Part shown: positions 7,969-39,927 of the stretch, piece by piece
Layout of the letters: every line of letters starts with the position of its first letter
Numbering within the stretch: the stretch's first letter is position 1
Source of the DNA: a virus
Reading direction: 5' to 3' (one strand)
IMG/VR virus record: IMGVR_UViG_3300035670_000108
Span: 1 to 64,000 of that record
Length of the DNA stretch: 64,000 nucleotides
Notes under the pieces: generated by a model
What the model was told of the DNA's origin: nothing
What the model saw: the letters and a program-made list of their open reading frames with translations, nothing else
Databases searched by the model: none
Position numbers and translations under genes: made by a program

Positions 7969-8248
7969 GGCTGTCTCCTTGGGACTCTGGGTTGCTGTGG
8001 ATGTGGATGAACACCCCTGGCCCGTACAGCCAGTTGGACGACTTCCCGCATTTCTTGCAGGTGAGGACGTCCAGACGTGGCTCGTCGCGGTGGGCGTGGC
8101 AGGAGGCCCAGCCTCCCACCTCCCACGACCAGGTGTCGCAGTGGGGGCAGCATTCGCTGCCCCCGGCCCGGCGCTCATACTCCTCGCGCTTCTTCAACTG
8201 CTGGCGCTTCTCGCGCCAGCCCCGGTACCACTCGATCAGGCGCTTCAT
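7949..8248 (-). CDS. small Cys-rich (zinc-binding) protein, 99 aa
   Basis: A basic N-terminal helix (MKRLIEWYRGWREKRQQLKK) is followed by CCPHC, a CHAH segment and CKKC, giving at least two CxxC pairs that could bind zinc. It lies between polymerase and ligase and overlaps both, so it is co-transcribed and probably nucleic-acid associated. Function unknown. Confidence 0.7.
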   Translation of the reverse strand: MKRLIEWYRGWREKRQQLKKREEYERRAGGSECCPHCDTWSWEVGGWASCHAHRDEPRLDVLTCKKCGKSSNWLYGPGVFIHIHSNPESQGDSHELEPD

Positions 8249-11200
8249 GCCGCCTCCTTCACCAGTTTCTCGAACAGGGTGATGATCTTCCGCTCGCTCG
8301 GCCGGTCCTGCAGCTCGGTCTGGTCACACCAGTTCAAGCCGATGGACACCTCGCCCATCATCGGAATGGCGTGGCCCGGCGGGGTCAGGTTCATGATGTC
8401 CTGCATCTTCTCGACGTACTCGAAGCAGTAGTCCATGTGGACCGAAGACATGATTTCGTCGTAGATCGGCAGGTGCATCACTGCTTTGTGCGGGTCGGTG
8501 AAGATCCCCTGCTCCTCGGCCTCGGTCATCACCACCTTCAGGATGTCGGCAGCGCAGCCCTGGATGGTCTGGTTGACTGCCTGGCGCTCGGCGCGGGAGC
8601 GCTTGGCACCGTCCTTGCTGAGGATGTCCTCGCTGACGTGCTTCCAGGTGCCGAAGGCGGTGGTGACGTAGCCACGCTGGCGGGCCAGCTTGATCGTCTC
8701 CTCCTGCCACGGGGCAAGGCGGGTGTACGAACCGAACACCGCTTCCATGATCCGCTCGGCGAATGCCTTGGGAATCCCGATGTTGCCGGCAAGGGTGCCG
8801 GCGGTGCCGAGGTAGCAGATCAGGAAGTTCACGGCCTTGGCCATCTTCCGCACCTTGTTCACCCCGTCCACGATGGCCTGGGCATCGGTTTGGGAGATGT
8901 CGAGCTGGCTGAGCGCCAGCAGGCCCTGCTTCACCACGTCCAGGAACTGGGCGTAGTTCATGCGGCCGAAGCTATCCAGCTCCAGGAACGACAGCTGAGT
9001 CTCGTTCAGCTCGCGCTTGAGCACCTCCATGGCGAACATCACGCCGGTTACCGAGTGCACGTCCTTCACCCGCTGGCGGGTCATGCCGTCCTCGTCGACG
9101 TAGGTGCCGCCGCCGGTGTAGGCCTCGATGAACGCTGGGTCCTTCGCTTCCGAACCGGTGATGCGCAGCTCCTGGCCGGAGAAGTCGATCGACACGATGA
9201 CGTGGCGGTTGTAGCGCGGGATCACGATCCGGCGCGGTTCACCCTTGGTGAAGGCCAGGGCATTCGGGCTGCCGCCGCTGGGGCGACGGGTCACGGTGCC
9301 GTTGTTCTTTACGCCCGGGTGAACCATGCCGGTGTCCGGCCGGCGCCACACTGGGTACGGATTCCACAGGCCCTCGAAGCGGGTCAGCGCGGCCTTCACC
9401 TTCAGGATCAGCTTCAGGCAGTCGCGGCGCCAATCGCCTTCTGGGCAGTCCTCGGCGATGGCCGACTGGAACGCCTTCTCGTTGGTGGCCGGCGAACCCT
9501 GCATGCGCCACTTATGGCGGTCGCTACCGGCCTGCACCTTGGAGCGCTGGCGCACCGGCAGACCCAGCTTCAGGTACAGAAGCTCCTGCATCTGGTTCGG
9601 GCTATCGAAGTTCAGCTCGTCGCCGGTCCAGTCGCTCTTCGCGTGCCGTTGGGCGATGCCCTGGCAGAAGGCGGCGAACTTTTCGTACTCCTCACCCTGG
9701 CGCTTGTTGATCTGGGCCGCCGCGGCGCCGATCAGCGCCATGAAGGTCTCGATCTCCGGCTCGAACTCGGTCTCCGTCTCGTACACCAGGTGGTTCAGGC
9801 GGATCAGCCACTCGGTGAGCTTCTTGCTCGCCGTGGAAGCCATGGCGTTTTCCTCGCCCTCTGGCAGGCCGAGGTGGCGGGCCACCTGCAGGATCTGCGC
9901 CGGCGTGGGGACGAACTCCACCGTGCGCTGCACTTCGACGCGGGGCTTGTAGGTGCAGGCCTCGCGCATCTTGAACAGCTGCACCTGCATCTCGGCCTTG
10001 AGCTTCTCGGAGCCGACGCCCTCCATCTTCTTGCGCAGGGCCATCTCGCGGTACTCGCGGTCGGCCTCCATGAAACGGGCGGCACGCAGGTCAGCTTCCT
10101 CCTGATCCACCTGCAGGCAGTTCTCGGTCAGCATGCGGCGCACTTCGGCCATGCCTTCGTCGATCAGGATGCGGTCGGCGGCTGCCTGGCGCTCCAGCTC
10201 GGCCTGGTCGATGTTGATGCCCTGCTGGTATGAGCGGTTAAGCAGGCGGCCGGGCAGGATGTCGTAGCGGTTGACGAACTCGCTCTGGCGCTCCAAGGCG
10301 CAGGCGAAGGTCTGCACCACCCAGATATGGGCCGAGGTCAGGGCGTCGTCACAGCCGTAGTGCAGCACCTGCTGGCCGCTGACTTCGCGCATGTTGGTCG
10401 CGCCGCTGGAAGCCAGCACTTCGCTGTACTGCACCTGCACATGGCGCAGCAGCTGCAGCGACACCTCCTTCAGGTTACCGCCACCGTTGGCGCCTTCCAT
10501 CAGGTTCTCGTCGTAGTAGCTCGTCCAGGTGATGCTGTCCTGCCAGTCAGAGATGTCCAGCCCCAGGTCACGCTCCAGGATCTGCTGCTCGAACCGGCTG
10601 TTGTGAGCCACCAGGGCTTTGCCCTCCTTGTCGTGCGCATGCACCAGCAGCTCGGTCAGGAAGGACAAGGGGTGGTTGTGGGTGTCGCGGTGATCAACCG
10701 GCACGTAGATGGTGTGCTGGAGGTTCTCGCCGAAGGTGAAGCTGGCGCCGGTCAGGGTCTGGCTGAGGGTGTCGACGTAGTCCTTGCCGCCGGTGACCGC
10801 CTCGCGCAGGTTGGCGAACATGTTCTTGTCGTAGCCCTCGGTGTCGAACCCGATGGCGGGGGATTTGCCGAAGCCCTCCTTGATGCGTGCCAGGCGGGCC
10901 TCGTTGACCCATTCCGCATCCGCCAGGGTCTCGGTGGACAGGAAGCGCTTGAACTCGTCGAACAGCGGGCTGCAGCCCAGCTTGGCGAGGATCTCGCGGA
11001 CCTTCTCGGCCAGCGGCAGGCGTTTGTGGTAGATCGGGCGGATCAGCTTGCTGCCGCGCGACATCCAGCACCAGTTGGGGTGCAGGCAGGCCAGCTTGTA
11101 GCACATGCGTGCCTGATCCCACTGCTGGTGGATCTTGAGCATGACCTTGTCGCCGTAGAGCTGGGCGGTATCCAGGATCTCGGCCGGCTCGTCCATCATG

Positions 11201-11943
11201 ATGCAGCGCTCGATCTCGGCCAGGCCCTCGTCGGCGTACTTCTCCTTCAGGTACAGCCAGGCTTTCGGGCCGAGGCCTTTGACGCCGCCGTATTCGTCCG
11301 TGGCGTCGCCGACCAGGGTCTTGAACAGGGTGACGTGCTTCGGCAGCAGGTCGATGCCCTCAGCCTCCAGCTTCACCGGCTCGTGCGGGTCGAGGAGCTG
11401 CTCGCGGAACATCATGGTGACGTTAGGCAGCAGGGCCAGGGGCACCAGGTCAAGGTCGCGGGTGTGGACGACGACCTGGCCCGGGTAGTTGTGGCAAACC
11501 ATGGCGATCGCATCGTCCGCTTCGACCAGGGGCACCTCGAGTACGGTGCAACCCAGGTACTTCAGCAGCTGCTGGGTTTCGCGCATCAGGATGTCCATCT
11601 GCTCGGTGAGCCGTGGGTCCTGCTTTTCCTTCTCGGCCTTGCGCTTGGCCTTGTATTCCGGGTAGATCGCGGTGCGCAGGTTGTTGCCGCCTTCAATCAC
11701 GGCAACCACGTCGATGGGGGCGGTGCGCTCGAAGATCGGCTGCAGGTAGCGTTCCCAGAACGCCTCGACGCCGTGGGCGGCCCTCTTGATCAAGGAGTGG
11801 CCGTCGCTGGCCAGGACGGCGTTTGGATCTCGCGCGCCGTGGTAGGCGTGCATGATCAGGCCCTTCAGGTCGAGCACTTCCTTCGGGCGGTGGGTGACTT
11901 CCATGCGCCGCGCCACAGACGCGATTGGCAGGATCTGAGTCAT
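8245..11943 (-). CDS. family A DNA polymerase with 5'-nuclease domain
   Basis: A 1232-residue protein with three domains. Residues about 20-300 are a PIN/FEN-type 5' nuclease (VVAVIEGGNN, PLVEADDAIAM, HTRDLDLV, GDATDEYGGVKGLG). A DEDD 3'-5' exonuclease follows (FDTEG near 365, AHNSRFEQQ near 447, YGCDDA near 531). The C-terminal third is the polymerase: motif A DFSGQELR near 918, motif B RKMAKAVNF near 1031, motif C IYDEIM near 1159. Motif C has Tyr where bacterial Pol I has His (HDE), and motif A has DFSGQ for DYSQI. The ATG at 11943 has GGAGA upstream; the longer start at 11970 would sit in a terminator stem. It is the replicative or repair polymerase of the phage. Confidence 0.93.
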   Translation of the reverse strand: MTQILPIASVARRMEVTHRPKEVLDLKGLIMHAYHGARDPNAVLASDGHSLIKRAAHGVEAFWERYLQPIFERTAPIDVVAVIEGGNNLRTAIYPEYKAKRKAEKEKQDPRLTEQMDILMRETQQLLKYLGCTVLEVPLVEADDAIAMVCHNYPGQVVVHTRDLDLVPLALLPNVTMMFREQLLDPHEPVKLEAEGIDLLPKHVTLFKTLVGDATDEYGGVKGLGPKAWLYLKEKYADEGLAEIERCIMMDEPAEILDTAQLYGDKVMLKIHQQWDQARMCYKLACLHPNWCWMSRGSKLIRPIYHKRLPLAEKVREILAKLGCSPLFDEFKRFLSTETLADAEWVNEARLARIKEGFGKSPAIGFDTEGYDKNMFANLREAVTGGKDYVDTLSQTLTGASFTFGENLQHTIYVPVDHRDTHNHPLSFLTELLVHAHDKEGKALVAHNSRFEQQILERDLGLDISDWQDSITWTSYYDENLMEGANGGGNLKEVSLQLLRHVQVQYSEVLASSGATNMREVSGQQVLHYGCDDALTSAHIWVVQTFACALERQSEFVNRYDILPGRLLNRSYQQGINIDQAELERQAAADRILIDEGMAEVRRMLTENCLQVDQEEADLRAARFMEADREYREMALRKKMEGVGSEKLKAEMQVQLFKMREACTYKPRVEVQRTVEFVPTPAQILQVARHLGLPEGEENAMASTASKKLTEWLIRLNHLVYETETEFEPEIETFMALIGAAAAQINKRQGEEYEKFAAFCQGIAQRHAKSDWTGDELNFDSPNQMQELLYLKLGLPVRQRSKVQAGSDRHKWRMQGSPATNEKAFQSAIAEDCPEGDWRRDCLKLILKVKAALTRFEGLWNPYPVWRRPDTGMVHPGVKNNGTVTRRPSGGSPNALAFTKGEPRRIVIPRYNRHVIVSIDFSGQELRITGSEAKDPAFIEAYTGGGTYVDEDGMTRQRVKDVHSVTGVMFAMEVLKRELNETQLSFLELDSFGRMNYAQFLDVVKQGLLALSQLDISQTDAQAIVDGVNKVRKMAKAVNFLICYLGTAGTLAGNIGIPKAFAERIMEAVFGSYTRLAPWQEETIKLARQRGYVTTAFGTWKHVSEDILSKDGAKRSRAERQAVNQTIQGCAADILKVVMTEAEEQGIFTDPHKAVMHLPIYDEIMSSVHMDYCFEYVEKMQDIMNLTPPGHAIPMMGEVSIGLNWCDQTELQDRPSERKIITLFEKLVKEAA

Positions 11944-11972
11944 GGTGGGTCTCCAGTTTACTGCAGGCATGA

Positions 11973-13025: not shown

Positions 13026-13053
13026 AGTGTACGCCACTGGCGGCGCATGTCAA
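13026..13053 (-). promoter_or_regulatory. sigma-70 promoter for the 307-aa protein gene
   Basis: On the minus strand TTGACA (13053-13048) is followed after 16 bases by TACACT (13031-13026). It overlaps the 3' end of the SNF2-like gene and reads toward 12939. Confidence 0.8.
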
Positions 13054-14648
13054 GACAGTACCAGGTCAGCAAGGAGGCGGGTCTTGTCGACCACCGCCCT
13101 CTCGATGTCCATCTCTGCCGTGAGCATGTTCTGGATAGCCTTCCGGGACACGGTACGCAGGGCGTCGATCACCCCCACGTCCACGACGTGCTTCTGGCCA
13201 GACCGGAGCACCCGCTCCAGCCCCTGCTTGAAGTCGCCGTACACCCCGGTCGGCTCTACGAAGAGCACGTTGTGGGACTGGTTCTGCAGGTTGAGGCCGG
13301 CGCTGGCCGACCTGGGGTTGGCGATCAGCAGGCGGCAACTGTCGTCGTGCAGGATCTTCTGCCGCTGCTTCTCCTTGGCAGAGCCCTGCACCTCCCCATA
13401 CATGAAGGCCGGGTTGTACTGGGACAGCGCGGCCCCGTAGCGCTCGATGGAGTCGATGCGGTTGAAGAACAGGATCACCTTCTGGCTCTCCAGGTCGGCC
13501 TCTTCCAGCCAATCGAGCACCGCTTCCATGACCGCGTTGCGGAAGCCAACCTGGTCTTCCTCGGACAGGAACAGCTCCGGACAGGAGACCATCTGCAGGG
13601 CGTGCTGGCGCAGCTGCTGCTGGTTCATGGCGAGGATCACCTCGTTGCCCATCTCCAGGAACCGCTCCTTGAGCAACCGGTGGTACAGCAGGTAGTGCTC
13701 GTCGCTGAGCGTCACCTTGACCCGGCGGATGTTTGGCTTGTGCAGATCCAGCACCTGGTCTTTCACCACGCGCCGGCCCTTCTCGTACAGCAGCTTGTGC
13801 ACCTTGTCGTGGTTGCGGTAGCCGATCAGCTGCTTGATCTGCTTGATCACCTTGCCGCCCTTGGCGGTGATGTAGTTCTCCGGCGAGAGCTTCACCGTCT
13901 TGTACTGGCTGTGCTCCCGGTCGAAGTGCTTGAAGCCGACATATCGTCCTGGGTTCACCAACTCGATGATCCCGTAGGCATCGGTCAAGGTGCGCGGGAT
14001 CGGCGTGCCTGTCATCGGCAGGAACACCGTCTCGTTGTTCGGTGGCCGCAGCGGCTCCACCTGGGCGTTATCGCGCCAGGCCTTGATCTGCTTCCACAGC
14101 TTGGTGTCTACGTTGCAGAGCTTCTTGTGCACCTCGTCGGCGCACAGCACTCGGTAGCCACGCTCGTAGAACCAGGCCGGATCTGCAGTGGGGCATTTGG
14201 CCTTGAACAGGTTGGAGAAGCCCTCGTAGGTCATCACCAGCATCTGCGGCCAGCCGTCCTGATCCCAGCCTTCCTCCAGCACGCGGCGCTTTTTCGGTTC
14301 GTAGTTGAACCGATCGACCGTCATGAATTTCTCGATCCCCTCGAACGTCTCGAAGAAATCGTCCATGTATTGGCCAATCAGGTTGCTCAAGGTTAGCACG
14401 ATGGTGCGGTACCCCTCGGTCGCCCAGTAGATGGCCCAGGCCTGGCTGACGACCGTCTTGCCGGTTCCCGGGTCGTCCCAGAGGCCGTACCAGTGGTTTT
14501 TCAAGGAGAGGTGGAGCCCGGTCACCTGGTAGTCGCGCGGCACGCCGCTGAGGCCACCGTTGGCGTCGGGCAGTTTGATTTCGACGTAGTCGCCGAAGGC
14601 CAGGGGTCTCTCGACCCCCGCCAGCTTCAGGTACTCGTTGAGGTTCAC
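13050..14648 (-). CDS. SNF2-like SF2 helicase/translocase
   Basis: A 532-residue protein. Walker A DDPGTGKT is at 58-65, the DExH-type box ADEVHK near 170, and TGTPIPR is motif III. The C-terminal RecA-like domain has SAGLNLQ near 449 and RVLRSGQKH (motif VI) near 480. The layout matches SNF2-family DNA translocases common in phages and predicts ATP-driven movement on duplex DNA, for replication fork or recombination tasks. It follows the PrimPol gene by eight bases and its end carries the promoter of the next gene. Confidence 0.9.
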   Translation of the reverse strand: MNLNEYLKLAGVERPLAFGDYVEIKLPDANGGLSGVPRDYQVTGLHLSLKNHWYGLWDDPGTGKTVVSQAWAIYWATEGYRTIVLTLSNLIGQYMDDFFETFEGIEKFMTVDRFNYEPKKRRVLEEGWDQDGWPQMLVMTYEGFSNLFKAKCPTADPAWFYERGYRVLCADEVHKKLCNVDTKLWKQIKAWRDNAQVEPLRPPNNETVFLPMTGTPIPRTLTDAYGIIELVNPGRYVGFKHFDREHSQYKTVKLSPENYITAKGGKVIKQIKQLIGYRNHDKVHKLLYEKGRRVVKDQVLDLHKPNIRRVKVTLSDEHYLLYHRLLKERFLEMGNEVILAMNQQQLRQHALQMVSCPELFLSEEDQVGFRNAVMEAVLDWLEEADLESQKVILFFNRIDSIERYGAALSQYNPAFMYGEVQGSAKEKQRQKILHDDSCRLLIANPRSASAGLNLQNQSHNVLFVEPTGVYGDFKQGLERVLRSGQKHVVDVGVIDALRTVSRKAIQNMLTAEMDIERAVVDKTRLLADLVLS

Positions 14649-14656: not shown

Positions 14657-17563
14657 CTACAGGTCGATGGTGCCGAGCACCTCGTAGACACGCCGGATGC
14701 TATCGACGTGCACGTTGCGCAGCTTGAGTTGGGCCATGTCCAGTACCATCGCCGGCTCGCCGAAGGCGAAGTCATCCAGCGACTTCCACTCGATGAAGTA
14801 CGGCTCGTGCTCGACCAATTGCTTGAGGTCGGACCAGGCTTCCAGCGGGCTGCGCCGGCCGGTGGTGCGGTACCACTCCAGGTAGCGGCTGTGACAGGTC
14901 TTGCCCCACAGATAGAGCTTGTCGCCAGCGACGCGGAAATCGGTGCGCGGCGAGAGCAACGGCCGGCGGGCGCCAGGCCTGCCGCTCTGCGTCTCCTCGT
15001 ACATGAGCGCGCCGGACTCGGAGATGATGTCGGCCAGCTGGATCATGAACTGGTCGACCTCCGACACCTGGCTGCGGCCCAGGACACCGGACAGGGACAG
15101 GCTAGGATCGTCCTCTTCCACCCGATCAGCTTCAGCGGTGATCTCGGTCAGGGCATTCTTGATTACGGTCAGTTCGTGTACCGAGTCCTGCATGCGCAGC
15201 TGGGTGCAGGTCTCGATCAACCAGGCCAGACCCATGTGCACCACCATCAGGCTGTAGCGCGGGCGGTCGTCGAACTGAGTGCCTACGCAGGCCCCCTGCA
15301 TCTCGACCATCTGCTCCACCTTGCTGATTGGCAGCCGCAGAGCACCCTGCATCAGCCTCTGACCCAGGCGCATCAGGTGTTGGCGTCCGTCCTGGGCCTT
15401 GAAGAAGGCCTCGCGGTTACGGCCAGCCTTGATCATCTTCACCACCAGGGTGCGCTCCAGTAGCGCCGGCATCTTGATCTGCTGCTCGCTGAGGATCAAG
15501 GCGGGGCTGGTCAGCGGGATCTCGATCGACACCGGGCTGCGTTGGCCCTGGACGACGGTACCGCGCGAGGACGATTCGCTGTTCCAGAGGGCCTTGAACA
15601 GCTCTCCCAGCATCAGGTACTGGTGCTCTGGGATCTTGTCGCGGTTGTACTCCTCGCACAGCCGCGGCACGGTAGTGGTGCCGGACAGCAGCTCGACGGC
15701 GTTGAAGGCCGTCTTCATGCCCGTCATGTTAGCCTTCGAGCGCTGGTTGCAGTTGAGGCCGTGCAGGGTCACCAGCAGCTCGGCCAGCTTCGACTTGCCG
15801 GCACCTGAGCCGCCCCACAAGGAGAGCAGCGGGAACTGGCCGTAGGCCTCGCGCAGGTGCTGTTTCAGGTGGCAGGCGGCTATCCAGCCCAGGCTGATGG
15901 CCATGACCGGCTGCTGGTTCGACTTGCACAGGTTGGCCAGGGCCTGGTCCGCCTTGGCGTCACCAATCTCCAGCGGCACCTGCTTGAACAGCGACGGCGG
16001 CAGCGGGATGACCTTGGTCAGGCGGTGGGTGTCGACCATCTGCAGGTTGTTCAGCGACTTGCCCGGCTCGACGAAGGTGATCAGGTCGGTGTCGCGGCGC
16101 CGTTCGATATGGATGCCGGCGGCTGTTACCTGGTGAATTTCAGGCATGTTCTCTTCCTCTAGGAACACCAGCATCTTGATCTTCTGGATCTCGGCGTCTC
16201 CGCCGGTGTAGTAGACCCCGTTGATCCCTTCAAGCGCCCGCAGGAATGAGCTTTTGCTCGCCCATGCCGCCTCGTCCATGATGACGGAGCCTAGCTTCTC
16301 GCCGTAGCGCATGACTCGGCACAGCGTGCCGCGGCGGCGAGTGCCGGTACCGTCTGGCATATCTTCCATGTAGGCGGCCTGAGCTTCCAGGGTGAAGGTG
16401 CTGATCTGTTCGGTTCGGCCCTTCGCCAGTTGGCGCAGGTAGCCGCTGTCGTTCTTCGATATACCGGACTTCTCGGCGATGTCGCTGAGGAACTCGGCGG
16501 TGTTGCTGCCTTTGCAGCTGTTCTCCAGCGGGCAGCCTTCGCAGATCTTCCGGCCAGCGGTGAGCATCGAGCGCATCGCGCCGCAGCCGAACTTGTAGTC
16601 GGGGCTGTTGACGGTGAACTTGTACTTGCCATCCAGCTCCACCATCCGCGCACGCGGTGTCGGGTAGCGGTCGGTGCGCTCGGCGTTGTCCGCCGTCATG
16701 GCGAAGATCCGGTTGCGCTCGAACTCCGGCGCGCCGGCCCGGCTGGCCCACAGGCCAAGGTTCAGCGCCACCTGGTTGAAGGTGGTGCTGCTCTTCAGGC
16801 CTTTGTATCCAGCGATCGCTTCGACACAAGGCGGAGCCTGGTCGGCGATCCGGTCAAGGTGGGCGACGGCGGTGTTACGGGAGCGCTCGGTAAGCTCGCG
16901 CTCCATAGCGCCCACCTTGTCGGTGGCGGTGCTGAACAGCACGTTGAGCTTGATCGAGTGCGGCCCCTTGTACGGGGTGTGCACCAGCTCCTTGCGCGGC
17001 TTCGAGACGAAACGCGCGTAGCTATCGGCGTCCAGCTCGAACAACTCGCGGATGCGGATGGGCACCCGGTAGTTGCCGTCGTAGCGCTTCAGGTTGGCGA
17101 TCCGGAAGGTGTTGTTCCGGCCGCAGGCATAGGGGCTCAAGTCCATGCCCGACACGTACAGCTCTGACGCCATGACCTTGTAGATCAGCGGCAGGTCCTT
17201 GATGGCGGTGTTGCGCGGCATGAAGCCGCGCTGGTCGACCAGGACGTGCAGGCCCTTCTTCCCTGAGCAGAAAATCTGGATCGCCTCTTCCGGCGTCTCG
17301 TAGATCTGGATCAGGTTGTTCACCAGCTGCTGGGCGGACTTGATGGCCTCCTCTACAGCTCCCTCCACGTCGATGTCGAAATACAGCGGGCCGTTATACT
17401 TGTGTCCCCGCTTAGCATCGTCTGCACCAAGGGGTGCATCTACCGCCAGGATGGTTAGCTTTTTTGCCCCTTTCTGCATCGCATCAACAACGACAGTCTC
17501 GCTATCGGTGATCGGATTCCAGGGTCCGTCCTCTTCCGTTTGGAAGAAGCGATACATAGCCAT
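14657..17563 (-). CDS. PrimPol-helicase (AEP primase fused to a helicase domain)
   Basis: A 968-residue protein. The N-terminal archaeo-eukaryotic primase fold shows FDIDVEG (residues 62-68, the DxD metal site), SGKKGLH (100-106) and a downstream ACGRNNTFRIANLKRYDG segment. A Cys cluster near 335-350 (CEGCPLENSC) probably binds zinc. The C-terminal part has Walker A GGSGAGKSK near residue 578, followed by ATPase motifs (CEEYNRD). It should make primers and unwind DNA at the fork. It is the first large gene after the HTH regulator and is probably controlled by the same promoter. Confidence 0.9.
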   Translation of the reverse strand: MAMYRFFQTEEDGPWNPITDSETVVVDAMQKGAKKLTILAVDAPLGADDAKRGHKYNGPLYFDIDVEGAVEEAIKSAQQLVNNLIQIYETPEEAIQIFCSGKKGLHVLVDQRGFMPRNTAIKDLPLIYKVMASELYVSGMDLSPYACGRNNTFRIANLKRYDGNYRVPIRIRELFELDADSYARFVSKPRKELVHTPYKGPHSIKLNVLFSTATDKVGAMERELTERSRNTAVAHLDRIADQAPPCVEAIAGYKGLKSSTTFNQVALNLGLWASRAGAPEFERNRIFAMTADNAERTDRYPTPRARMVELDGKYKFTVNSPDYKFGCGAMRSMLTAGRKICEGCPLENSCKGSNTAEFLSDIAEKSGISKNDSGYLRQLAKGRTEQISTFTLEAQAAYMEDMPDGTGTRRRGTLCRVMRYGEKLGSVIMDEAAWASKSSFLRALEGINGVYYTGGDAEIQKIKMLVFLEEENMPEIHQVTAAGIHIERRRDTDLITFVEPGKSLNNLQMVDTHRLTKVIPLPPSLFKQVPLEIGDAKADQALANLCKSNQQPVMAISLGWIAACHLKQHLREAYGQFPLLSLWGGSGAGKSKLAELLVTLHGLNCNQRSKANMTGMKTAFNAVELLSGTTTVPRLCEEYNRDKIPEHQYLMLGELFKALWNSESSSRGTVVQGQRSPVSIEIPLTSPALILSEQQIKMPALLERTLVVKMIKAGRNREAFFKAQDGRQHLMRLGQRLMQGALRLPISKVEQMVEMQGACVGTQFDDRPRYSLMVVHMGLAWLIETCTQLRMQDSVHELTVIKNALTEITAEADRVEEDDPSLSLSGVLGRSQVSEVDQFMIQLADIISESGALMYEETQSGRPGARRPLLSPRTDFRVAGDKLYLWGKTCHSRYLEWYRTTGRRSPLEAWSDLKQLVEHEPYFIEWKSLDDFAFGEPAMVLDMAQLKLRNVHVDSIRRVYEVLGTIDL

Positions 17564-17602: not shown

Positions 17603-17815
17603 TTAGTTGAGGTTGGCCTTTGCGGCTTCGATCTTCGCCTTGAGCAGGCTGACGGCACGCCCCGGTACCGGGCGGGCGCGGTCACTCGTCCGGTCTGGCA
17701 TGAGCCAGGCATCGACGGACGAGCGGGAGTATTCAGTGAGGGTGGCCAGTTCCTCTGGGTTGAGCTGGTGTTCCTTTGCCAGGTCCATCAGCTCGGCGCG
17801 GTAATCTTCTTGCAT
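17603..17815 (-). CDS. HTH transcriptional regulator, 70 aa
   Basis: A small basic protein with a helix-turn-helix of the Cro/CI kind: NPEELATLTEYSRSSVDAWL, then a loop and a Lys/Ala-rich helix. The ATG at 17815 has GGAG ten bases upstream; the longer frame to 17872 would include the promoter. The gene has its own promoter, with the palindrome TGTACGGAGTACA in the spacer, so it is probably autoregulated. The same palindrome covers the -10 box of the plus-strand promoter at 49 kb. I infer a repressor or switch that links replication genes with the rightward operon; no family assignment beyond HTH is possible by eye. Confidence 0.75.
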   Translation of the reverse strand: MQEDYRAELMDLAKEHQLNPEELATLTEYSRSSVDAWLMPDRTSDRARPVPGRAVSLLKAKIEAAKANLN

Positions 17816-17843
17816 GATGCCGCTCCGCTTGGTGTTGCCGGCG

Positions 17844-17872
17844 ATCATATTGTACGGAGTACAAAGAAACAA
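17844..17872 (-). promoter_or_regulatory. sigma-70 promoter of the HTH/PrimPol operon
   Basis: On the minus strand TTGTTT (17872-17867), a 17-base spacer and TATGAT (17849-17844) lie 29 bases upstream of the HTH start. The spacer holds the 13-bp operator-like palindrome. Confidence 0.75.
17851..17863. promoter_or_regulatory. operator-like palindrome TGTACGGAGTACA, copy 1
   Basis: Inverted repeat TGTAC-GGA-GTACA lying entirely between the -35 and -10 boxes of the HTH gene promoter. The only other copy I found is at 49000-49012, also in a promoter. It is the likely binding site of the adjacent HTH protein. Confidence 0.7.
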
Positions 17873-17891
17873 GGCCCTCGAAAGGGCCTTG
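17870..17891 (-). terminator. rho-independent terminator after thymidylate synthase
   Basis: Minus-strand stem CAAGGCCCT / AGGGCCTTG with a TTCG loop, followed by TTTCTTTG. It ends the upstream nucleotide-metabolism operon just before the HTH promoter; the -35 box overlaps its right arm. Confidence 0.8.
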
Positions 17892-17911
17892 TCGTCACAG
17901 CGTAGCTGAAA

Positions 17912-28348: not shown

Positions 28349-28354
28349 CAGACC

Positions 28355-28371
28355 CTGCAAAGACTTTGCAG
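28355..28371. repeat. 17-bp palindrome, copy 1
   Basis: CTGCAAAGACTTTGCAG, perfect. Here the symmetry extends to 27 bp (28350-28376). It lies between the stop of the 101-aa gene (28399) and the start at 28329. Confidence 0.9.
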
Positions 28372-28398
28372 GGTCTGAAGGTTAGACGAATTGGCGGA

Positions 28399-28704
28399 TC
28401 AGCGGAAGTCGTACAGTTGCTTGCGCAGTTGCGCTCGCTCCACGTCCCAGTCCTGGCCGGTGCAATAGGTCATCACCTGGCCCCTCACGTAGAGGCGCTC
28501 GATAGCCCAGCGGCCAGGCCACTCCTTCAGGGGGCGGGCGATGTTCTCGGCGATGACCTGCTTCTTGTCCTGGCGGCAGCGTTTGGTGACCATGTCCAGC
28601 AAGGATCGCTGCTGTTTGTCCGTCAACACCTGCTGCGCGTTGGGGTTTTCTCGTGCGTCTCGCATCATCATCTTCAGCGAGATCTCCTCGTGGGCTGTGC
28701 TCAC
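28399..28704 (-). CDS. hypothetical protein, 101 aa
   Basis: A basic helical protein (QQRSLLDMVTKRCRQDKKQVIAENI) ending in an aromatic, basic region. Overlaps the gene upstream by four bases. No motif recognised. A palindrome copy lies 28 bases downstream. Confidence 0.7.
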   Translation of the reverse strand: MSTAHEEISLKMMMRDARENPNAQQVLTDKQQRSLLDMVTKRCRQDKKQVIAENIARPLKEWPGRWAIERLYVRGQVMTYCTGQDWDVERAQLRKQLYDFR

Positions 28705-28985
28705 AGTGCGTACTCCCGTTTGATGGCCAGATAGCGGGTGGTGTCGACCTTCTGCACCACCCAGTCAGTGGCCTCGGCCTCGTTGTCGCCGCCGGCCGGG
28801 TAGACCCCAACGACGGTGGGGATCGAGAAGCTCTGCCCCTTGGCGGTGACGATGCGGTCGCCGGGCTCGACCTTCATGTCCTCGGGCGCCAGGTAGAAGT
28901 AGGAGCGGTTGCCACCGCCACTGAAGATCACGCCGACAACGACGTAGGGGGTCTTGGGTTTCGGGTCGAGCAAGGGGTGGCTCAT
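28701..28985 (-). CDS. hypothetical beta-rich protein, 94 aa
   Basis: The pattern YVVVGVIFSG, then YFYLAPEDMKVEPGDRIVTAKG and IPTVVGVYP suggests a small beta-barrel, similar in rhythm to the phage DNA- or RNA-binding domains found next to replication genes. Not assigned to a family. Overlaps neighbours on both sides. Confidence 0.7.
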   Translation of the reverse strand: MSHPLLDPKPKTPYVVVGVIFSGGGNRSYFYLAPEDMKVEPGDRIVTAKGQSFSIPTVVGVYPAGGDNEAEATDWVVQKVDTTRYLAIKREYAL

Positions 28986-29485
28986 GGCAGTTGTTCCTCG
29001 GGCATTTCCAGGCGGTAGAAGCCCAGCACCTGGGTGCCGTTGACCTCCTGGACGGTGAAGGTGATCTCGGGGCCGGCGACGTTGTCCAGCTGCTCCATCA
29101 GCGAGCTGACGAAGGCGTCGACCTGCGGCGGCTGCAGCTCGTGGTAGCGGTCGAACAGGCCGTTGTAGCTGGCCGGCGCCACCTGGGCGATCAGGTCGAG
29201 CAGGAACTCTGCCGTCTCCTCGTCGGTGTAGCTGGCCGGGCTGACAAGGTGGGGGCCGCCATCGGCTACCGTCTCGGCCGGCGCGCTGTGCACCTCGAAG
29301 ACCACCAGGCAGTTGTCACCCTTGAGGCTCGCCAGCGGGTTGCTCTTGAGGGTGGCTATCGCCTCGTCGACGTCGCGGTTGGTCGGCGCCAGCAGTCGCC
29401 GGGCCTCTTCCTCGCTGATGCCGACGTGCTGGGGGCCGACGCGGCGGGAGAAGTGGCCGGGAATGGTGCGGCGTTGGTAACTCAT
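28982..29485 (-). CDS. hypothetical protein, 167 aa
   Basis: An acidic protein. The ATG at 29485 has GGAG upstream (AGGAGCCACCCC). Predicted helices at SEEEARRLLAP and DEETAEFLLDLIAQV. Unknown function. Confidence 0.7.
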   Translation of the reverse strand: MSYQRRTIPGHFSRRVGPQHVGISEEEARRLLAPTNRDVDEAIATLKSNPLASLKGDNCLVVFEVHSAPAETVADGGPHLVSPASYTDEETAEFLLDLIAQVAPASYNGLFDRYHELQPPQVDAFVSSLMEQLDNVAGPEITFTVQEVNGTQVLGFYRLEMPEEQLP

Positions 29486-29736
29486 GGGGTGGCTCCTTTG
29501 CGTGGTTGACAGTCGGTGTGGTAGGTCGGCTCGGTCTTCCACACCTTAGAACGAGCGATCAGCTCGTCGAGAATCTGGCGTCGGGTTTTGGCGTTTCCAG
29601 CGGCGTCAGTGTTGAACGGGTTGAGGGTCTGCGACTCGGTGAAAGTGCGCGAGGCCTTCTTGTTGCAGACGGGGCAGATTCCCGACTTCTTGATCGGGTA
29701 CTTGACCACCTCGAAGTTCACGCGGGTTGTACGCAT
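29482..29736 (-). CDS. zinc-ribbon-like protein, 84 aa
   Basis: GICPVCNKKASRTF carries one CxxC knuckle and YHTDCQP provides a His and a Cys that could complete a zinc site. A Cys-poor helix lies between. Overlaps both neighbours. Function unknown. Confidence 0.7.
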   Translation of the reverse strand: MRTTRVNFEVVKYPIKKSGICPVCNKKASRTFTESQTLNPFNTDAAGNAKTRRQILDELIARSKVWKTEPTYHTDCQPRKGATP

Positions 29737-30164
29737 GGCTCACCCTCCATGCCGCCGGCATAGATCTTCACGTCGTCGCCTAAGTACAGGTCAATCGGTA
29801 GGAAGTCGGTGTCGTAGCCGCAGGCCTTAGTCAGGCGCAGCCCGACATCGCCCAGGCCACGATCCCAGAACCCGCAGCCGTGACCGTTACGGGTCAGCCA
29901 GAGGTCATGACCGGCGTAATCGTAGGCCGTACCCTGGCTAGGGTCATAGCTGATCTGGTCGGTGTACAGCTCCAGGTCATCGCGGTAGCGCTCGAAGAAC
30001 TTGGTGGCCTCGGCCTTCAGGCGCTCTTCCTGGTGCTCCCCCCACTCGAAGTTGTCCGAGTCGAGGTCAACGTCTTGGCCGGTCTGCGGGTGGGTGCTGG
30101 TGCTGCTCCACAGGGCGGCCACCAGGTAGCCGCGCAGGAACTCTTCAAGGAGTGGGTTACTCAT
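29718..30164 (-). CDS. conserved phage protein, 148 aa
   Basis: N-terminal LLEEFLRGYLVAALWSS, central AGHDLWLTRNGHGCGFWDRGLG and C-terminal DLYLGDDVKIY segments match a phage protein type that I have seen in many siphoviruses, without known role. The protein is acidic and soluble. Confidence 0.75.
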   Translation of the reverse strand: MSNPLLEEFLRGYLVAALWSSTSTHPQTGQDVDLDSDNFEWGEHQEERLKAEATKFFERYRDDLELYTDQISYDPSQGTAYDYAGHDLWLTRNGHGCGFWDRGLGDVGLRLTKACGYDTDFLPIDLYLGDDVKIYAGGMEGEPCVQPA

Positions 30165-30414
30165 GGGGGAATACCTCGTCGATAATGTGGCGGCAGCGGC
30201 GGCACTCTCGCGCGCCAGCCGCCTCGGCGGTGCGGAAGGAGCCGCCGGTGGAGTACGGCTTGCTGCCGCACATGGCCCCGCCGTCGTGGATAGCGTGGGC
30301 GACGCCGGTCTGGTCGTGCCAGCGGTTCAGCGAGGGCGCCCACCACACGCCGGTGGCGTCGACAGCCCGGCGGATCTCGGCGAGCCGCCCCTTGCCTGGC
30401 TCACAGAGGTTCAT
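30157..30414 (-). CDS. hypothetical protein, 85 aa
   Basis: Has an RECRRCRH motif (CxxC) near the C-terminus and an early Cys, possibly a zinc site. Overlaps the gene upstream by 14 bases and the one downstream by eight, as expected for a real gene in this packed region. Confidence 0.65.
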   Translation of the reverse strand: MNLCEPGKGRLAEIRRAVDATGVWWAPSLNRWHDQTGVAHAIHDGGAMCGSKPYSTGGSFRTAEAAGARECRRCRHIIDEVFPHE

Positions 30415-31021
30415 CGCCTTCCGCCTCCTCGACGAAGGGCACGATGTCCACGGTGATGTCGAAGGTCTCGTCGATCTGGCCGTCCAGCGGGCCGCCGAAC
30501 TGATCCAGCTTGAAGCGGCCGGCGTTCAGCACCAGGCACTTGCGCTTCGGCTCGATGCCGCGATCCCACAGATCGAGCATGTCCTTCACCGCGTTGTGCA
30601 CCTGCTCGGACAGCTGGCCCATCGGGTCGTCACCGATGTCCGCGTCGTCCAGCAGGGCACCGGGTTCCAGCATGGCCAGGTTCAACTCTTCGTCAACCTC
30701 CAGGGCCGATCCCTCGATGGCGAAACACATGGCGCCGTTGAAGGTGCAGCCTGGGAAGGCGTTGATCTCTATGCGGATCTGGTTGAGCACCTTCGGCGCC
30801 GGCAGCTCGATGCCGTCGTCGTCCCAGGCGGCCGGATGGATGTCCCCCGGTACCACGCCGATGACCTTGATCTCGGTCTCGCGCATCGACCAGTCAGCGG
30901 CGGCCTGGGCACGGCCCTCGACGCCGGCAAGGGTGGCATCCTCCTGCTCAACCTCGACGGTGCAGATGTGGGTGGTGCCGGCGTCATTGGTTTGGCGGCA
31001 GAAAGTGGTGAACTTGAACAT
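30401..31021 (-). CDS. hypothetical protein, 206 aa
   Basis: An acidic protein. The ATG at 31021 is supported by GAGGAGG seven bases upstream. The sequence alternates beta-type segments (MFKFTTFCRQ, ICTVEVEQE) with acidic loops. Unknown family. Confidence 0.75.
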   Translation of the reverse strand: MFKFTTFCRQTNDAGTTHICTVEVEQEDATLAGVEGRAQAAADWSMRETEIKVIGVVPGDIHPAAWDDDGIELPAPKVLNQIRIEINAFPGCTFNGAMCFAIEGSALEVDEELNLAMLEPGALLDDADIGDDPMGQLSEQVHNAVKDMLDLWDRGIEPKRKCLVLNAGRFKLDQFGGPLDGQIDETFDITVDIVPFVEEAEGDEPL

Positions 31022-31035
31022 GGCGACCTCCTCGG

Positions 31036-31155
31036 TCAAAACCAGATATAGCGGTAGAAGGTGTAGGTGCCGAGCAGGCCTCCCGGTTTGAAGACCTGAT
31101 ACCCAACGTGCACCCCTTGTCGGATGATCATTCGCAGACGGTAGCGTTGCTTCAC
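31036..31155 (-). CDS. very small basic protein, 39 aa, GTG start
   Basis: GTG at 31155 with GGGAGG seven bases upstream, overlapping the stop of the preceding gene (GTGA). The product begins MKQRYRLRMIIRQG and ends TYTFYRYIWF: basic and aromatic. Too short for family assignment, but the coupling and ribosome site support translation. Confidence 0.55.
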   Translation of the reverse strand: MKQRYRLRMIIRQGVHVGYQVFKPGGLLGTYTFYRYIWF

Positions 31156-31409
31156 AGGGAACCTCCCATTGCCTTGATCACCATCGGGGTGATGTCCTTG
31201 CGCGAGCCTTCCCAGAAGCGGAACGCCGGAGACCGGCCCACCTCGAAGTCGACGCGCATCATCAGCCGGCCGCGGCGGTTGGTCACGTAGGCCTGGCCAT
31301 GCGGTTGCAGCAGATCCGGCTGGAATGTGGCGGCGTTGCGGATTGCCTCGCGCGCCGCCACCCGCACCTTGGCCAGGAAGGCCTCATTGAGGCTCGTTGG
31401 CGTGATCAT
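31152..31409 (-). CDS. hypothetical basic protein, 85 aa
   Basis: The N-terminal half is helical (AFLAKVRVAAREAIRNAATF) and the C-terminal half beta-like with several Arg (YVTNRRGRLMMRVDFEVGRS). The ATG at 31409 is preferred over TTG at 31430, since GAGG lies upstream. Overlaps the gene upstream by 26 bases. Confidence 0.65.
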   Translation of the reverse strand: MITPTSLNEAFLAKVRVAAREAIRNAATFQPDLLQPHGQAYVTNRRGRLMMRVDFEVGRSPAFRFWEGSRKDITPMVIKAMGGSL

Positions 31410-31734
31410 GGGAGGTACCCTCGTAGCCAATGGCCAACAGGTTCTGGATGGCGGCGTCGATCGCCGTGGCCTTGGCCTGCGCCTCGCCCATGATCTCGTC
31501 GCGGGCCTTCTCCATGGCCTTGACTTCCAGGCTGATCATGTCGATCTCGCCCTCGGGCAGCGGCACTTCCACTTCGTGCTCGCAGATGAAGATCTCGCCG
31601 GAGGTGTTGGCCTTCAGCTGCCGGGGGTCCCAGCTTTGCATCGAGAAGGTGTAAGGCAGTTGCCCTGGTTCGACATAACACCGGCGGCGAGCGACGACAT
31701 AGAGCTTCTGTTTCAGAGCGGAGGGGAGTTTCAT
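31384..31734 (-). CDS. hypothetical protein, 116 aa
   Basis: A beta-rich first half (LYVVARRRCYVEPGQLPYTF) and a helical second half with many Ala, Glu and Lys (EVKAMEKARDEIMGEAQAKAT). Unknown. A palindrome copy (31743-31759), also the end of a 24-bp direct repeat, lies eight bases before the start. Confidence 0.7.
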   Translation of the reverse strand: MKLPSALKQKLYVVARRRCYVEPGQLPYTFSMQSWDPRQLKANTSGEIFICEHEVEVPLPEGEIDMISLEVKAMEKARDEIMGEAQAKATAIDAAIQNLLAIGYEGTSHDHANEPQ

Positions 31735-31740
31735 GGAGTC

Positions 31741-31764
31741 ACCTACAAAGGCTTTGCAGCCTGG
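31741..31764. repeat. 24-bp direct repeat, left copy, including palindrome copy 2
   Basis: The 24 bases (plus strand, starting ACCTACAAAGGCTTTGCAG) recur exactly at 33512-33535. The core CTACAAAGGCTTTGCAG (31743-31759) is a palindrome variant with two changed bases. The two copies bracket the GDSL-esterase cassette. Confidence 0.9.
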
Positions 31765-31788
31765 CTATTGATGGCGATGGAAAAGATG

Positions 31789-31810
31789 CGGGAGGCCTAA
31801 GCCTCCCGCA
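31789..31810 (-). terminator. rho-independent terminator of the esterase cassette
   Basis: Minus-strand stem GCGGGAGGC / GCCTCCCGC with a TTAG loop, followed by ATCTTTTCC. It ends transcription after the gene at 31828. Confidence 0.85.
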
Positions 31811-31827
31811 AATGGTGTTGCTGTCGA

Positions 31828-33159
31828 TCAGGTTGGGATCTGGCCGGGCACCGGCCTGATCTCCAACCCGGTGATGCGGAAAGTCCCGGTGGGCGGCCCC
31901 AGCGTCGACAGATAGCACGCTGCCCTGAGCCGCAGGTCGGTCGCGTCGGCCGGCATGACGAATCGAGGGGAGCGCGCTATACCCGCATCGGCCACCTGCG
32001 GCAGCAGGCTGACGTTGGTGTACTTGTCACCGTCCCAGAGGGAAGTGGTTCCGCCCGGGGTAATCAGCTGGAAGCCGAACTGCAGCGAAGCGATGTTGTT
32101 CACGTCGGCGTCGTGCTCGTACTGGGCCACGACTTCGTAGACTAGGCCTGGCGTCACCTTGTTTTGCAGGCCGATCTGGCGCATCAGGTCGATCGCCGCC
32201 GTCTGCGTCGCGGCCACGCCGCCGACCACGATTTGCTGCCAGGTCTTGCCATCCTTGGTGACCTTGGAATAGGTTCGGGTCACGCCAGTGGTGCCGGTCG
32301 AGTTGCTGCCGCTGTAGCCGGTGGCTAGCTGGCCGGAGCCGCCGCTGCCGACGGTGCCTGTGGTGCCTGCCGTCAGCGCGTTGCTGCTGGCCGACCCCTG
32401 CGGGTTGGTAGTCGCGTTCCACGGATTCTCCACCGTTGCGATGACCGGGATGGCGGTGAACAGGTTCGCTACCACCTCAGCGGCGGTGATGCCCCAGTAA
32501 TAGGCGCCAAGGGTCAGCGGGTGCAGGCCGTCGCTGGTGTACCCGTCCTTGATGTCGTTGACCGTCCCATCCTTGAGCAGGTGGGTGTGGTTGTCCACGA
32601 CGTAGCAACCGACCCCCGGCAGTTCGGCGAGCATCCGGCTGCGGATGGTCTGGGCGGTTACCAAATTGGCGCCGGCCAGTCGGGTAGCTGGGTAGATGTC
32701 GTTGCCGCGTGGCGCCGGGACGATGAAAATCAGCACCATGCGCGCGGTCTTCGCCGCGTCCCGCATGCGCTTCATCGACTCCAGCGTCTGGTCGGCAGTC
32801 ACCCCGGCGTTCGGGTCGTTGGTCCCCACGGCGATGATGCCAAGGCCGGCGCCGGTGGCTATCATGGCCGTCATCCTCGCCTCGGCCATAAGCGTCGTAT
32901 CGCCGCCCACGCCGAAGTTCCTATTCGGCGAGAAGTACAGCCGCTGCCCAGTTCGGCGGTTCATCGAGGTGATGAAGCCGTTGTTCTGGAAGCCGCCCAC
33001 CGTGGACGAGTTCTGCAGCACTATGCTGTCGCCCAGGATCGCCAGCAGGTTGTTGCGCGGAGCGCCGTCCCAGGCTGGCGCTCCGCGGGGCGGTGGAGCG
33101 TCTTGCAGGTTGCTCGATAGGCTCTGGAACACAGCCCTTGCCAGCTTGTTCGCCAGCAT
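31828..33159 (-). CDS. SGNH/GDSL hydrolase, probable virion-associated esterase
   Basis: A 443-residue protein. Residues about 38-240 form a GDSL hydrolase domain: LGDSIV with the nucleophilic Ser45, GVGGDT (Gly of the oxyanion hole, near 85), GTND (Asn near 114) and the catalytic pair in SDGLHP near 211-216. The C-terminal 200 residues are Gly/Thr/Ser-rich and beta-type, as in tail-spike or fibre appendages. Such proteins deacetylate host polysaccharide. Here it stands in an early minus-strand region, with its own weak promoter and terminator, bracketed by repeats, as an acquired cassette. Confidence 0.8.
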   Translation of the reverse strand: MLANKLARAVFQSLSSNLQDAPPPRGAPAWDGAPRNNLLAILGDSIVLQNSSTVGGFQNNGFITSMNRRTGQRLYFSPNRNFGVGGDTTLMAEARMTAMIATGAGLGIIAVGTNDPNAGVTADQTLESMKRMRDAAKTARMVLIFIVPAPRGNDIYPATRLAGANLVTAQTIRSRMLAELPGVGCYVVDNHTHLLKDGTVNDIKDGYTSDGLHPLTLGAYYWGITAAEVVANLFTAIPVIATVENPWNATTNPQGSASSNALTAGTTGTVGSGGSGQLATGYSGSNSTGTTGVTRTYSKVTKDGKTWQQIVVGGVAATQTAAIDLMRQIGLQNKVTPGLVYEVVAQYEHDADVNNIASLQFGFQLITPGGTTSLWDGDKYTNVSLLPQVADAGIARSPRFVMPADATDLRLRAACYLSTLGPPTGTFRITGLEIRPVPGQIPT

Positions 33160-33162
33160 GGC

Positions 33163-33450
33163 TCAGGTCTCCGAAAATACGCCGATGGCCGCGCCGCCGG
33201 GCCGGGCCGCTGACCGCATCACACGGTAGGTGCCAGGCCCGAAGATCTGAACCTGGCGCTGCGCGTCGTTCAGCAGCGCCACGAAGTTATCGGCGCCGGG
33301 GGTGTCAATGACCACCTTGATCTGCTGGCTGACCTGGACGTTGGCGCTGGCGGCGAAGATCCCTACTACGGCTGAGGCCCCCGCGGCGAGCACGACGTCA
33401 GTGGACGTCGCAGCCGCCGTTCCTTCGGCCAGAATGGTTGACTGAGGCAT
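33163..33450 (-). CDS. small beta-rich protein of the esterase cassette, 95 aa
   Basis: Many Ala, Val, Thr and Gly, with no charged cluster: TDVVLAAGASAVVGIFAA, then FGPGTYRVMR. The profile is that of small virion or fibre-associated beta proteins. It starts 61 bases from a palindrome and ends three bases before the esterase gene, so it is the first gene of a two-gene cassette. Confidence 0.65.
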   Translation of the reverse strand: MPQSTILAEGTAAATSTDVVLAAGASAVVGIFAASANVQVSQQIKVVIDTPGADNFVALLNDAQRQVQIFGPGTYRVMRSAARPGGAAIGVFSET

Positions 33451-33490
33451 GGTTAGCTCCCTGCTGGATGAGGCGTGGAAAGTGGCATCA

Positions 33491-33519
33491 AGACTACACC
33501 TGGTCGAAGTGACCTACAA
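33491..33519 (-). promoter_or_regulatory. possible promoter of the esterase cassette
   Basis: Minus strand TTGTAG (33519-33514, the end of the palindrome), 17-base spacer, TAGTCT (33496-33491). The -10 box is weak. Confidence 0.35.
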
Positions 33520-33535
33520 AGGCTTTGCAGCCTGG
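33512..33535. repeat. 24-bp direct repeat, right copy, including palindrome copy 3
   Basis: Same 24 bases as 31741-31764. The palindrome 33514-33530 also codes the end of the 205-aa protein: on the minus strand it reads A-A-K-P-L-stop, with the TAG formed by the variant arm. Confidence 0.9.
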
Positions 33536-34131
33536 AAGAAGTCGTTAACGAACTGGCGCGGCACGATGGCGACGTAGCGATGGCCGAGGATCTGCTGGTA
33601 CTTGACCTGGATCAGGGCGTGGTCGTCGCGCCAGCTGATGTCGAGGTAGTAATGGTTGGACGGGTTGACCCCTGGCTGGGCGCTGTAAATCATCGTGGCC
33701 ATCACGTCGATCAGCGCCTGGCTGGGGCGGACGTGGTTGTACAGGTCGAAGCCGCAGCCTACCGGCAGGCTCACCCACAACATGCCCGGAGGTGTCTCGC
33801 CCGCCGCCTTGCCCGTAGAGCGCTCGGTGAACAGCTCAGCCAGGCTCTCGCGGATCTGAATCGGCATCTTGCGGCGCACCGGTACCCAGGCCAGGGCCAC
33901 CTGGTTGTCCGGCCAATCCGGGTCGAGATCCTCGAGCATGGCGCAGTTCGAGCAGATGAACTCGGCAGCGTCAGGTGCCGCCAGGTTCGGGGCGTAGTCG
34001 CGGTACCAGCCTACTGCCTGGCCCGCCTCGACGCGCACCTTGGCGTCGCAGACCAGGCAACACAGGGCCTGGCCCAGGTACTGGCCCCGCATGATGGGGC
34101 GCAGCAGTCTAGTGGAGATGGGCTTTAGCAT
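33514..34131 (-). CDS. hypothetical protein, 205 aa
   Basis: The N-terminal half has CCLVC and, 38 residues on, CSNC, a good zinc site. The rest has aromatic, beta-type segments (NHYYLDISWRDDHALIQVKY). Its last residues AAKPL and the TAG stop are encoded by a palindrome copy. Function unknown. Confidence 0.7.
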   Translation of the reverse strand: MLKPISTRLLRPIMRGQYLGQALCCLVCDAKVRVEAGQAVGWYRDYAPNLAAPDAAEFICSNCAMLEDLDPDWPDNQVALAWVPVRRKMPIQIRESLAELFTERSTGKAAGETPPGMLWVSLPVGCGFDLYNHVRPSQALIDVMATMIYSAQPGVNPSNHYYLDISWRDDHALIQVKYQQILGHRYVAIVPRQFVNDFFQAAKPL

Positions 34132-34552
34132 CTTCGTTCACCTCGGTGTAATGGGCTTCTGGCTGCGGGTCGATGTTGATGGCCATGTGCAGGCCGGTGG
34201 GGCGCTGGTAGAACGGCTGGCCATTGCGCGGGTCGAGGACCGTCACCTGGTCTTGCGACACGTCCATGCGCACCAGCGCGGCGGTGTCCTCGGCAGTCCA
34301 CACGCGGGCCTTGCCCTCGACGGTCAAGGAGAGGCTGTTGACGCCGTAGATGATCGGCGTGCACTGCACGGTGCGCCTCTCCAGGGTGGCGCCGGCCGCC
34401 AGCTGCAGCTCGTCGGCGGCAGCGCGCAGGATCGCCACGGGGTCGGTATGGTTGCCGCTGACGTGGTCATTGAGCGCCACCCGCGCCTTGCTGCGCAGGC
34501 CGTCGGCCATCTCCAGCAGGATGTTCTGCAGCTCACGTTCTCGCTTGCTCAT
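34109..34552 (-). CDS. hypothetical protein, 147 aa
   Basis: A helical N-terminus (ELQNILLEMADGLRSKARVAL), then a beta-rich part. Starts 12 bases after the stop of the gene upstream and overlaps the one downstream. No motif recognised. Confidence 0.7.
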   Translation of the reverse strand: MSKRERELQNILLEMADGLRSKARVALNDHVSGNHTDPVAILRAAADELQLAAGATLERRTVQCTPIIYGVNSLSLTVEGKARVWTAEDTAALVRMDVSQDQVTVLDPRNGQPFYQRPTGLHMAINIDPQPEAHYTEVNEDAKAHLH

Positions 34553-34564
34553 GGTCTGCCTCGG

Positions 34565-34990
34565 TCACTTCTTGAAGCGTGAATGGGGGTCGAGATTCTC
34601 TTGCCAGTCGTCATCGAGATCGGCACCGCGTAGGCGCATCACGACGCCGGACAGCGTAGGGAAGTCTCCCGTGGCGCCTCCCACCCCTGTATTGACCAAG
34701 TGGCAGTTGTGCAGCTGGCACTCCCCGCCACCGCTGCTCATTTCGATGATCAGACTGTCGATCTTGGCTTCCTCGACGATCGGCCGGTTCAGGTAGCGCA
34801 AGGCGAGCCGCACCTGCTGGCGCCGCTGCTTGCTGTTGCCGCGCAGGCAGAGGCTGGTCACCCGCTTTCCCGCGGCATCGAGGATGTAGGTAGTCCAGCG
34901 CGAGTGCTGGACGGTGAACGGCTGTTTCCCAACCGAACGCAGGCCGTCCCAGTAGCGCCGGTAGTGGGGGCCTGGCTGATAGCGCTTCAT
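34565..34990 (-). CDS. hypothetical basic protein, 141 aa
   Basis: The first 70 residues are basic (NSKQRRQQVRLALRYLNR) and the C-terminus acidic. There are Cys and His in GECQLHNCHL, without a clear metal pattern. Unknown. Confidence 0.7.
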   Translation of the reverse strand: MKRYQPGPHYRRYWDGLRSVGKQPFTVQHSRWTTYILDAAGKRVTSLCLRGNSKQRRQQVRLALRYLNRPIVEEAKIDSLIIEMSSGGGECQLHNCHLVNTGVGGATGDFPTLSGVVMRLRGADLDDDWQENLDPHSRFKK

Positions 34991-35166
34991 GGCTGCACTA
35001 CCTCGTGATACTCGATCACACGGATATGCTCGTGGGTGTCGTACAGCTTCAAGCGGGCTGCCTCGAAGTCGACCGCGTCCACCTCCTTGGTGAACTGGAT
35101 GCAGATGCCAATGGCATTATTTTCTCGACCGTAGAAGGTGATCGAGAAGGTCTTCTCGGTGCTCAT
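34987..35166 (-). CDS. hypothetical protein, 59 aa
   Basis: Short alpha/beta protein (FSITFYGRENNAIGICIQF, then a helix). The ATG at 35166 has GGAGAG upstream; a longer frame would use the palindrome region. Overlaps the next gene by four bases. Confidence 0.65.
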   Translation of the reverse strand: MSTEKTFSITFYGRENNAIGICIQFTKEVDAVDFEAARLKLYDTHEHIRVIEYHEVVQP

Positions 35167-35178
35167 GATTCTCTCCAG

Positions 35179-35195
35179 CTGCAAAGACTTTGCAG
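35179..35195. repeat. 17-bp palindrome, copy 4
   Basis: CTGCAAAGACTTTGCAG, perfect, between the stop at 35197 and the start at 35166. Confidence 0.9.
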
Positions 35196-35196
35196 A

Positions 35197-36474: not shown

Positions 36475-36483
36475 AGGGCCTCC

Positions 36484-37459: not shown

Positions 37460-37462
37460 GAT

Positions 37463-37481
37463 TTGCCTCCTATAATGGCAA
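37463..37481 (-). promoter_or_regulatory. Shine-Dalgarno hairpin before 37459
   Basis: Minus strand TTGCC-ATTATAGGA-GGCAA. The AGGAGG ribosome site lies in the loop and right arm, four bases before the ATG. Confidence 0.5.
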
Positions 37482-37487
37482 TGGAAC

Positions 37488-39925: not shown

Positions 39926-39927
39926 GG

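Follow-up and report, generated by a model that had tools for sequence, protein, structure and literature searches.

A 70-aa XRE-type protein of a Pseudomonas-type phage is probably an autoregulator, most likely a repressor, which uses one operator type at both its own promoter and a rightward promoter. The window analysed here covers 64,000 nt of a phage record of 89,047 bp (G000). The fold class of the protein, the gene order and the two sites with their conservation were read from the sequence, and distant relatives as well as chromosomal islands appear to have kept both DNA sites. The features around the regulator gene are as follows.

8245-11970, minus strand: DNA polymerase I-type gene, in the same cluster as the HTH gene (phrog_17, 4.9e-71)
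13050-14648, minus strand: helicase, next gene of the cluster (phrog_62, 2.2e-58)
14657-17563, minus strand: primase, in the HTH operon (phrog_16345 primase, 1.7e-55)
17603-17815, minus strand: XRE/Cro-type HTH regulator gene, 70 aa, an ATG ORF and the first gene of the replication cluster
17844-17872, minus strand: HTH promoter-like element, TTGTTT (17872-17867), 17 nt, TATGAT (17849-17844), read from the sequence
17851-17863, no strand: candidate operator 1, TGTACGGAGTACA, inside the spacer of the putative HTH promoter
17868-17893, minus strand: terminator-like hairpin of the intrinsic type, after thymidylate synthase and directly before the HTH promoter

The first-pass annotation had assigned a 70-aa HTH protein to the coordinates of an 89-aa TTG ORF. 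The 70-aa protein was retained, and the ATG ORF at 17603-17815 is the better choice of gene; the TTG ORF is probably not the gene, because it overlaps the operator and the start codons of the relatives also lie downstream of the palindrome. The AlphaFold model of the 70-aa protein (pLDDT 84) contained four helices (6-15, 20-27, 31-37, 52-68), and its top Foldseek matches were XRE proteins, namely prophage Lp1 protein 11, C-proteins, the CapH N-domain and Aca1, with E-values all >0.05, as expected at 70 residues. The protein matched the PHROG 'transcriptional repressor' (0.00036), while Pfam gave only HTH_23 at 0.033; among nine HTH homologues, HTH_31 was found in 5/9 and HTH_3 in 4/9. The compact helical HTH domain of the model places the protein in the XRE / Cro-C1 class.

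A 13-bp palindrome had been described between the -35 and -10 boxes of the HTH promoter, and it is indeed present at 17851-17863, though the -35 is weak. Its exact symmetry reaches 15 bp (17850-17864, TTGTAC-TCC-GTACAA). The promoter is absent from the consensus-scan list because its -35 matches at only 3/6 positions. Since the terminator-like hairpin ends at this promoter, HTH, primase, helicase and polymerase look like a transcription unit of their own. The second site lies in the divergent region, with these features.

48924-48933, plus strand: CCCACTTTTT block, which precedes operator 2 by about 65 nt and is conserved in relatives as CACACTTTTTT
48986-49014, plus strand: rightward promoter, TTGCCA-17-TACACT, listed by the consensus scan
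48991-48997, plus strand: AATCCCA box, immediately preceding operator 2 and kept in relatives
49000-49012, no strand: candidate operator 2, a 13-mer identical to operator 1, in the divergent region and covering the rightward -10
49075-49557, plus strand: first rightward gene, 160 aa, without a family match
49554-50591, plus strand: second rightward gene, RdgC-like (PF04381, 3.7e-68), with the start taken from our own gene caller

Candidate operator 2 overlaps the TACACT -10, and the first rightward gene begins about 60 nt downstream of it. To its left, GTGCCAACT/AGTTGGCAC repeats were observed in the divergent region at 48811-48942 of the window, and GTGCCAA also occurs near sites in the relatives G002 and G003.

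A search of the whole 89,047-bp record showed exactly two copies of TGTACGGAGTACA, at 17851-17863 and 49000-49012, and no further copy in the record, also at one mismatch. This confirmed across the record the earlier statement that the only other copy lies over the -10 of the promoter at 48986-49014. There are 139 exact 5-N3-5 palindromes in the window, and three more 13-mers of this form were found twice, all within genes. Palindromic 13-mers can thus be repeated within genes by chance, so the two copies of TGTACGGAGTACA taken alone are a weak, suggestive sign. Both copies lie in promoter-like intergenic DNA. The earlier view that two copies in promoters make a strong case held for the copies and their positions and did not hold for the strength drawn from the pair alone; the relatives are needed, and it is on them, not on copy number, that the case for a functional pair rests.

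Other repeats were also seen in the window. About 17 copies of CAAAG-N-CTTTG, most of them CTGCAAAG[A/T]CTTTGCAG, are spread over 28354-47775, mainly upstream of leftward genes, and are often followed by ATTGCC...GGAGGCAA; the hairpin would include the Shine-Dalgarno sequence. At 46619-46689 there are two TGTGC-N3-GCACA palindromes, 58 bp apart, in the direct repeat CCACCCTTGTGCCC[A/T]GCACAGG, and their arms equal the HTH operator arms of G001/G002.

Scanning IMG/VR with a primase alignment picked out eight contigs, L009-L016, in which a homologous HTH gene directly precedes the primase, and a ninth such contig was L127, from a Desulfobacteraceae MAG. IMG/VR scans with the HTH protein or the primase as a single-protein query gave no match, scans with two HTH homologues returned only those queries, a plasmid search gave no match and a phage search weak matches only. 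L009, L010, L012 and L014 are mutually close and were counted as one lineage; L015 and L127 represent HTH-bearing lineages that are not Pseudomonas-like. The first-pass annotation had proposed to look for the palindrome beside the HTH gene in relatives, and a 5-N3-5 palindrome was found upstream of the HTH start in all nine homologue contigs (L009-L016, L127), with arms that vary symmetrically: TGTAC/GTACA, TGTGC/GCACA and TGTAG/CTACA. The palindromes were TGTACTAGGTACA (two lineages), TGTGCTGGGCACA/TGTGCAGGGCACA and TGTAGCAGCTACA, plus AGTAC/GTACC types. In dinucleotide-shuffled HTH upstream regions of six lineages, a matching palindrome appeared at a frequency of 0.0035-0.04 each, for a relaxed form whose definition was loosened after some relatives had been seen. 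A terminator-like hairpin or a T tract stands ahead of the palindrome in most of the nine relatives, as judged by eye, and was not evident in L016; a clear sigma-70 promoter was not seen at the operator of L009-L012. These results suggested that a palindrome at its own promoter, conserved in relatives, marks the HTH gene as a putative autoregulator.

TGTACNNNGTACA was present in two HTH-bearing records and in 0/15 HTH-less records. GTAC-N3-GTAC occurred 23 times in HTH-bearing sequence, versus 8 times with spacer 2 and 4 times with spacer 4; this enrichment is only modest, because HTH-less sequence also has 13. Pseudomonas phages PMBT3, Lana and UAntarctica and Vibrio phage SHOU24 share the replication gene set, with primase/polymerase about 22-36% identical, but differ in having another small ORF upstream of the primase and no TGTACNNNGTACA. 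This small ORF was considered as an HTH counterpart and rejected as unrelated. A correspondence between the second residue of the recognition helix and the arms at the HTH site (S-TGTAC, A-TGTGC, G-TGTAG) was considered and is not claimed, as A-type phages have GTAC in their divergent-region sites.

The divergent-region site was also followed in the relatives. In the alignment of the main divergent region, G002, G003 and G004 carry CACACTTTTTT, followed after about 50-75 nt by AAATCCCA and a palindrome of the form GTAC-N3-GTAC, and the window counterpart of this block is CCCACTTTTT...AATCCCAACTGTACGGAGTACA. G003 has the divergent region in two copies, with the site kept in both, and G005 has a partly degenerate block with TGTACTTGGCACA nearby; coverage of the region by G001, G006 and G007 is not clear. 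No recognisable second site of this type was found in G008, where a TGTAG-N3-CTACA copy at 58292 was set aside because it looks like coding sequence. Of the palindromes expected at both promoters in relatives with the HTH gene, the second was found in G002, G003 and G004 and not in G008, and the islands have lost the HTH-proximal one. In the IMG/VR relatives G001-G004, a conserved GGTAC-N3-GTACC palindrome precedes a ParA-like ATPase gene, and G001-G005 have a CsrA-like gene, preceded in G001 and G004 by a partial operator-like site. The sites upstream of these two genes are possible extra members of the regulon and are less secure.

In the proposed circuit, we infer dimer binding, repression and timing. 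The XRE protein would bind KGTAC-N3-GTACM palindromes as a dimer. Operator 1 would act at the promoter of the operon that contains the regulator gene itself together with primase, helicase and polymerase, and which the terminator-like hairpin would shield from upstream transcription; operator 2 would cover the rightward promoter, within the main divergent control region. Both promoters would be active early in infection; as the protein accumulates, RNA polymerase would be occluded at both, so that expression of the replication genes would be self-limiting and coupled to the shut-down of the first rightward genes (the 160-aa protein and RdgC). For the small repressor circuit suggested earlier to join PrimPol/helicase expression with the rightward operon, the two-site link is supported by the relatives, and repression is the part that is inferred. 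Against the circuit stand the poor -35 of the HTH promoter, the G008 second site that was not recognised and the degenerate HTH-proximal sites of the islands. If correct, it is a testable two-promoter system for an uncharacterised phage lineage, with a 70-aa protein and a defined operator, and the natural arm variants (TGTAC, TGTGC, TGTAG) with their homologues make it possible to study how an operator and its minimal XRE protein change together.

Other readings of the two sites were weighed against this one. The same protein and operators might activate transcription, or activate one promoter and repress the other, as an early-to-middle switch. The mediocre rightward -10 (TACACT), the poor -35 of the HTH promoter and the lack of clear sigma-70 boxes around the divergent site in G002-G004 would fit activation, but the operator is placed between the -35 and -10 boxes or overlaps the -10 (in the window and in G005), positions that usually block polymerase, and the nearest folds of the protein include known autorepressors; we consider activation unlikely. 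It is quite improbable that another regulator, of host or phage, binds the palindromes and that the HTH gene is a mere neighbour. Two islands (L128 and L129) do retain a divergent-type site without an intact HTH gene, which such a regulator would explain, but the strict palindrome is present in 0/15 HTH-less relatives, its variants precede HTH genes across several diverged lineages, of which L015 and L127 are not Pseudomonas-like, and the arms change together. A functionless chance repeat of the 13-mer, which the three doubled 13-mers inside genes might suggest, is made very unlikely by the positional conservation of both sites in relatives.

Autoregulation by the XRE protein through both sites remains the preferred reading, and parts of the same module were found in four Pseudomonas chromosomal islands, L126, L128, L129 and L130 (Pseudomonas lini, boanensis, tumuqii and farris). 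Their compact cassette consists of a serine recombinase, a phage-type operator block, a 175-aa gene, in some cases the HTH gene, and a primase. The block, which is similar to the divergent region and partly degenerate, stands before the genes for the 175-aa protein, the HTH and the primase; GTACTCAGTAC is found three times in tandem in L130 and once in L128, L129 has a single site with one mismatch (GGTACACAGCACA), and in L126 the sequence is ATCCCAACTGTGCACTGTACA. The HTH-proximal site is degenerate in L126 and L130, and L128 and L129 have kept the divergent-type site with only a relic of the HTH gene. A takeover of operon control by the upstream sites would fit the degraded HTH-proximal site. 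The island primase is 67-83% identical to the primase of these phages and open over its full length. Tyrosine integrase genes lie near at least two of the four islands, and no terminase match was obtained, in a search without a positive control. The islands may be phage satellites; decoys or decaying fragments are other options. Capture of the operator-HTH-primase module for use as a phage-responsive satellite or an anti-phage decoy is a tentative, rather doubtful proposal; if true, an infecting phage of this group would switch the island, or hijack it, via the shared operator code. The islands tie this phage group to chromosomal elements that retain its operator and primase.

Several known systems resemble the proposed circuit. 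The short phage repressors lambda Cro and Mu Ner have about 70 aa, autoregulate and control more than one promoter, and the 70-aa protein is like them in its size, its proposed autoregulation and its two promoters. The tyrosine and serine integrase families PF00589 and PF00239 had no match in the 89,047-bp record, which may be incomplete; with neither an integrase nor a serine recombinase family detected, the record gives no indication of a role in lysogeny. C proteins of restriction-modification systems (e.g. C.Esp1396I) are also autoregulating and have the small XRE fold in common with the 70-aa protein, but here the genes examined include no restriction-modification neighbour and each promoter in the window has a single 13-bp palindrome. 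The autorepressors Aca1 and Aca2 bind inverted repeats overlapping the -10 and -35 of their own promoter (PMC8434428). These proteins, of Pseudomonas phage JBD30 and Pectobacterium phage ZF40, are alike in being small HTH proteins with an inverted repeat at their own promoter, and Aca1 is among the nearest folds of the 70-aa protein (TMq 0.58). The neighbours of the HTH gene are thymidylate synthase and primase, with no acr gene recognised among them. Unlike the Aca genes, the 70-aa gene heads a primase/helicase/polymerase cluster, has a second operator 31 kb away and differs in operator sequence. The type of circuit is well known, whereas the protein, the operator and the lineage are new as far as the tools used show.
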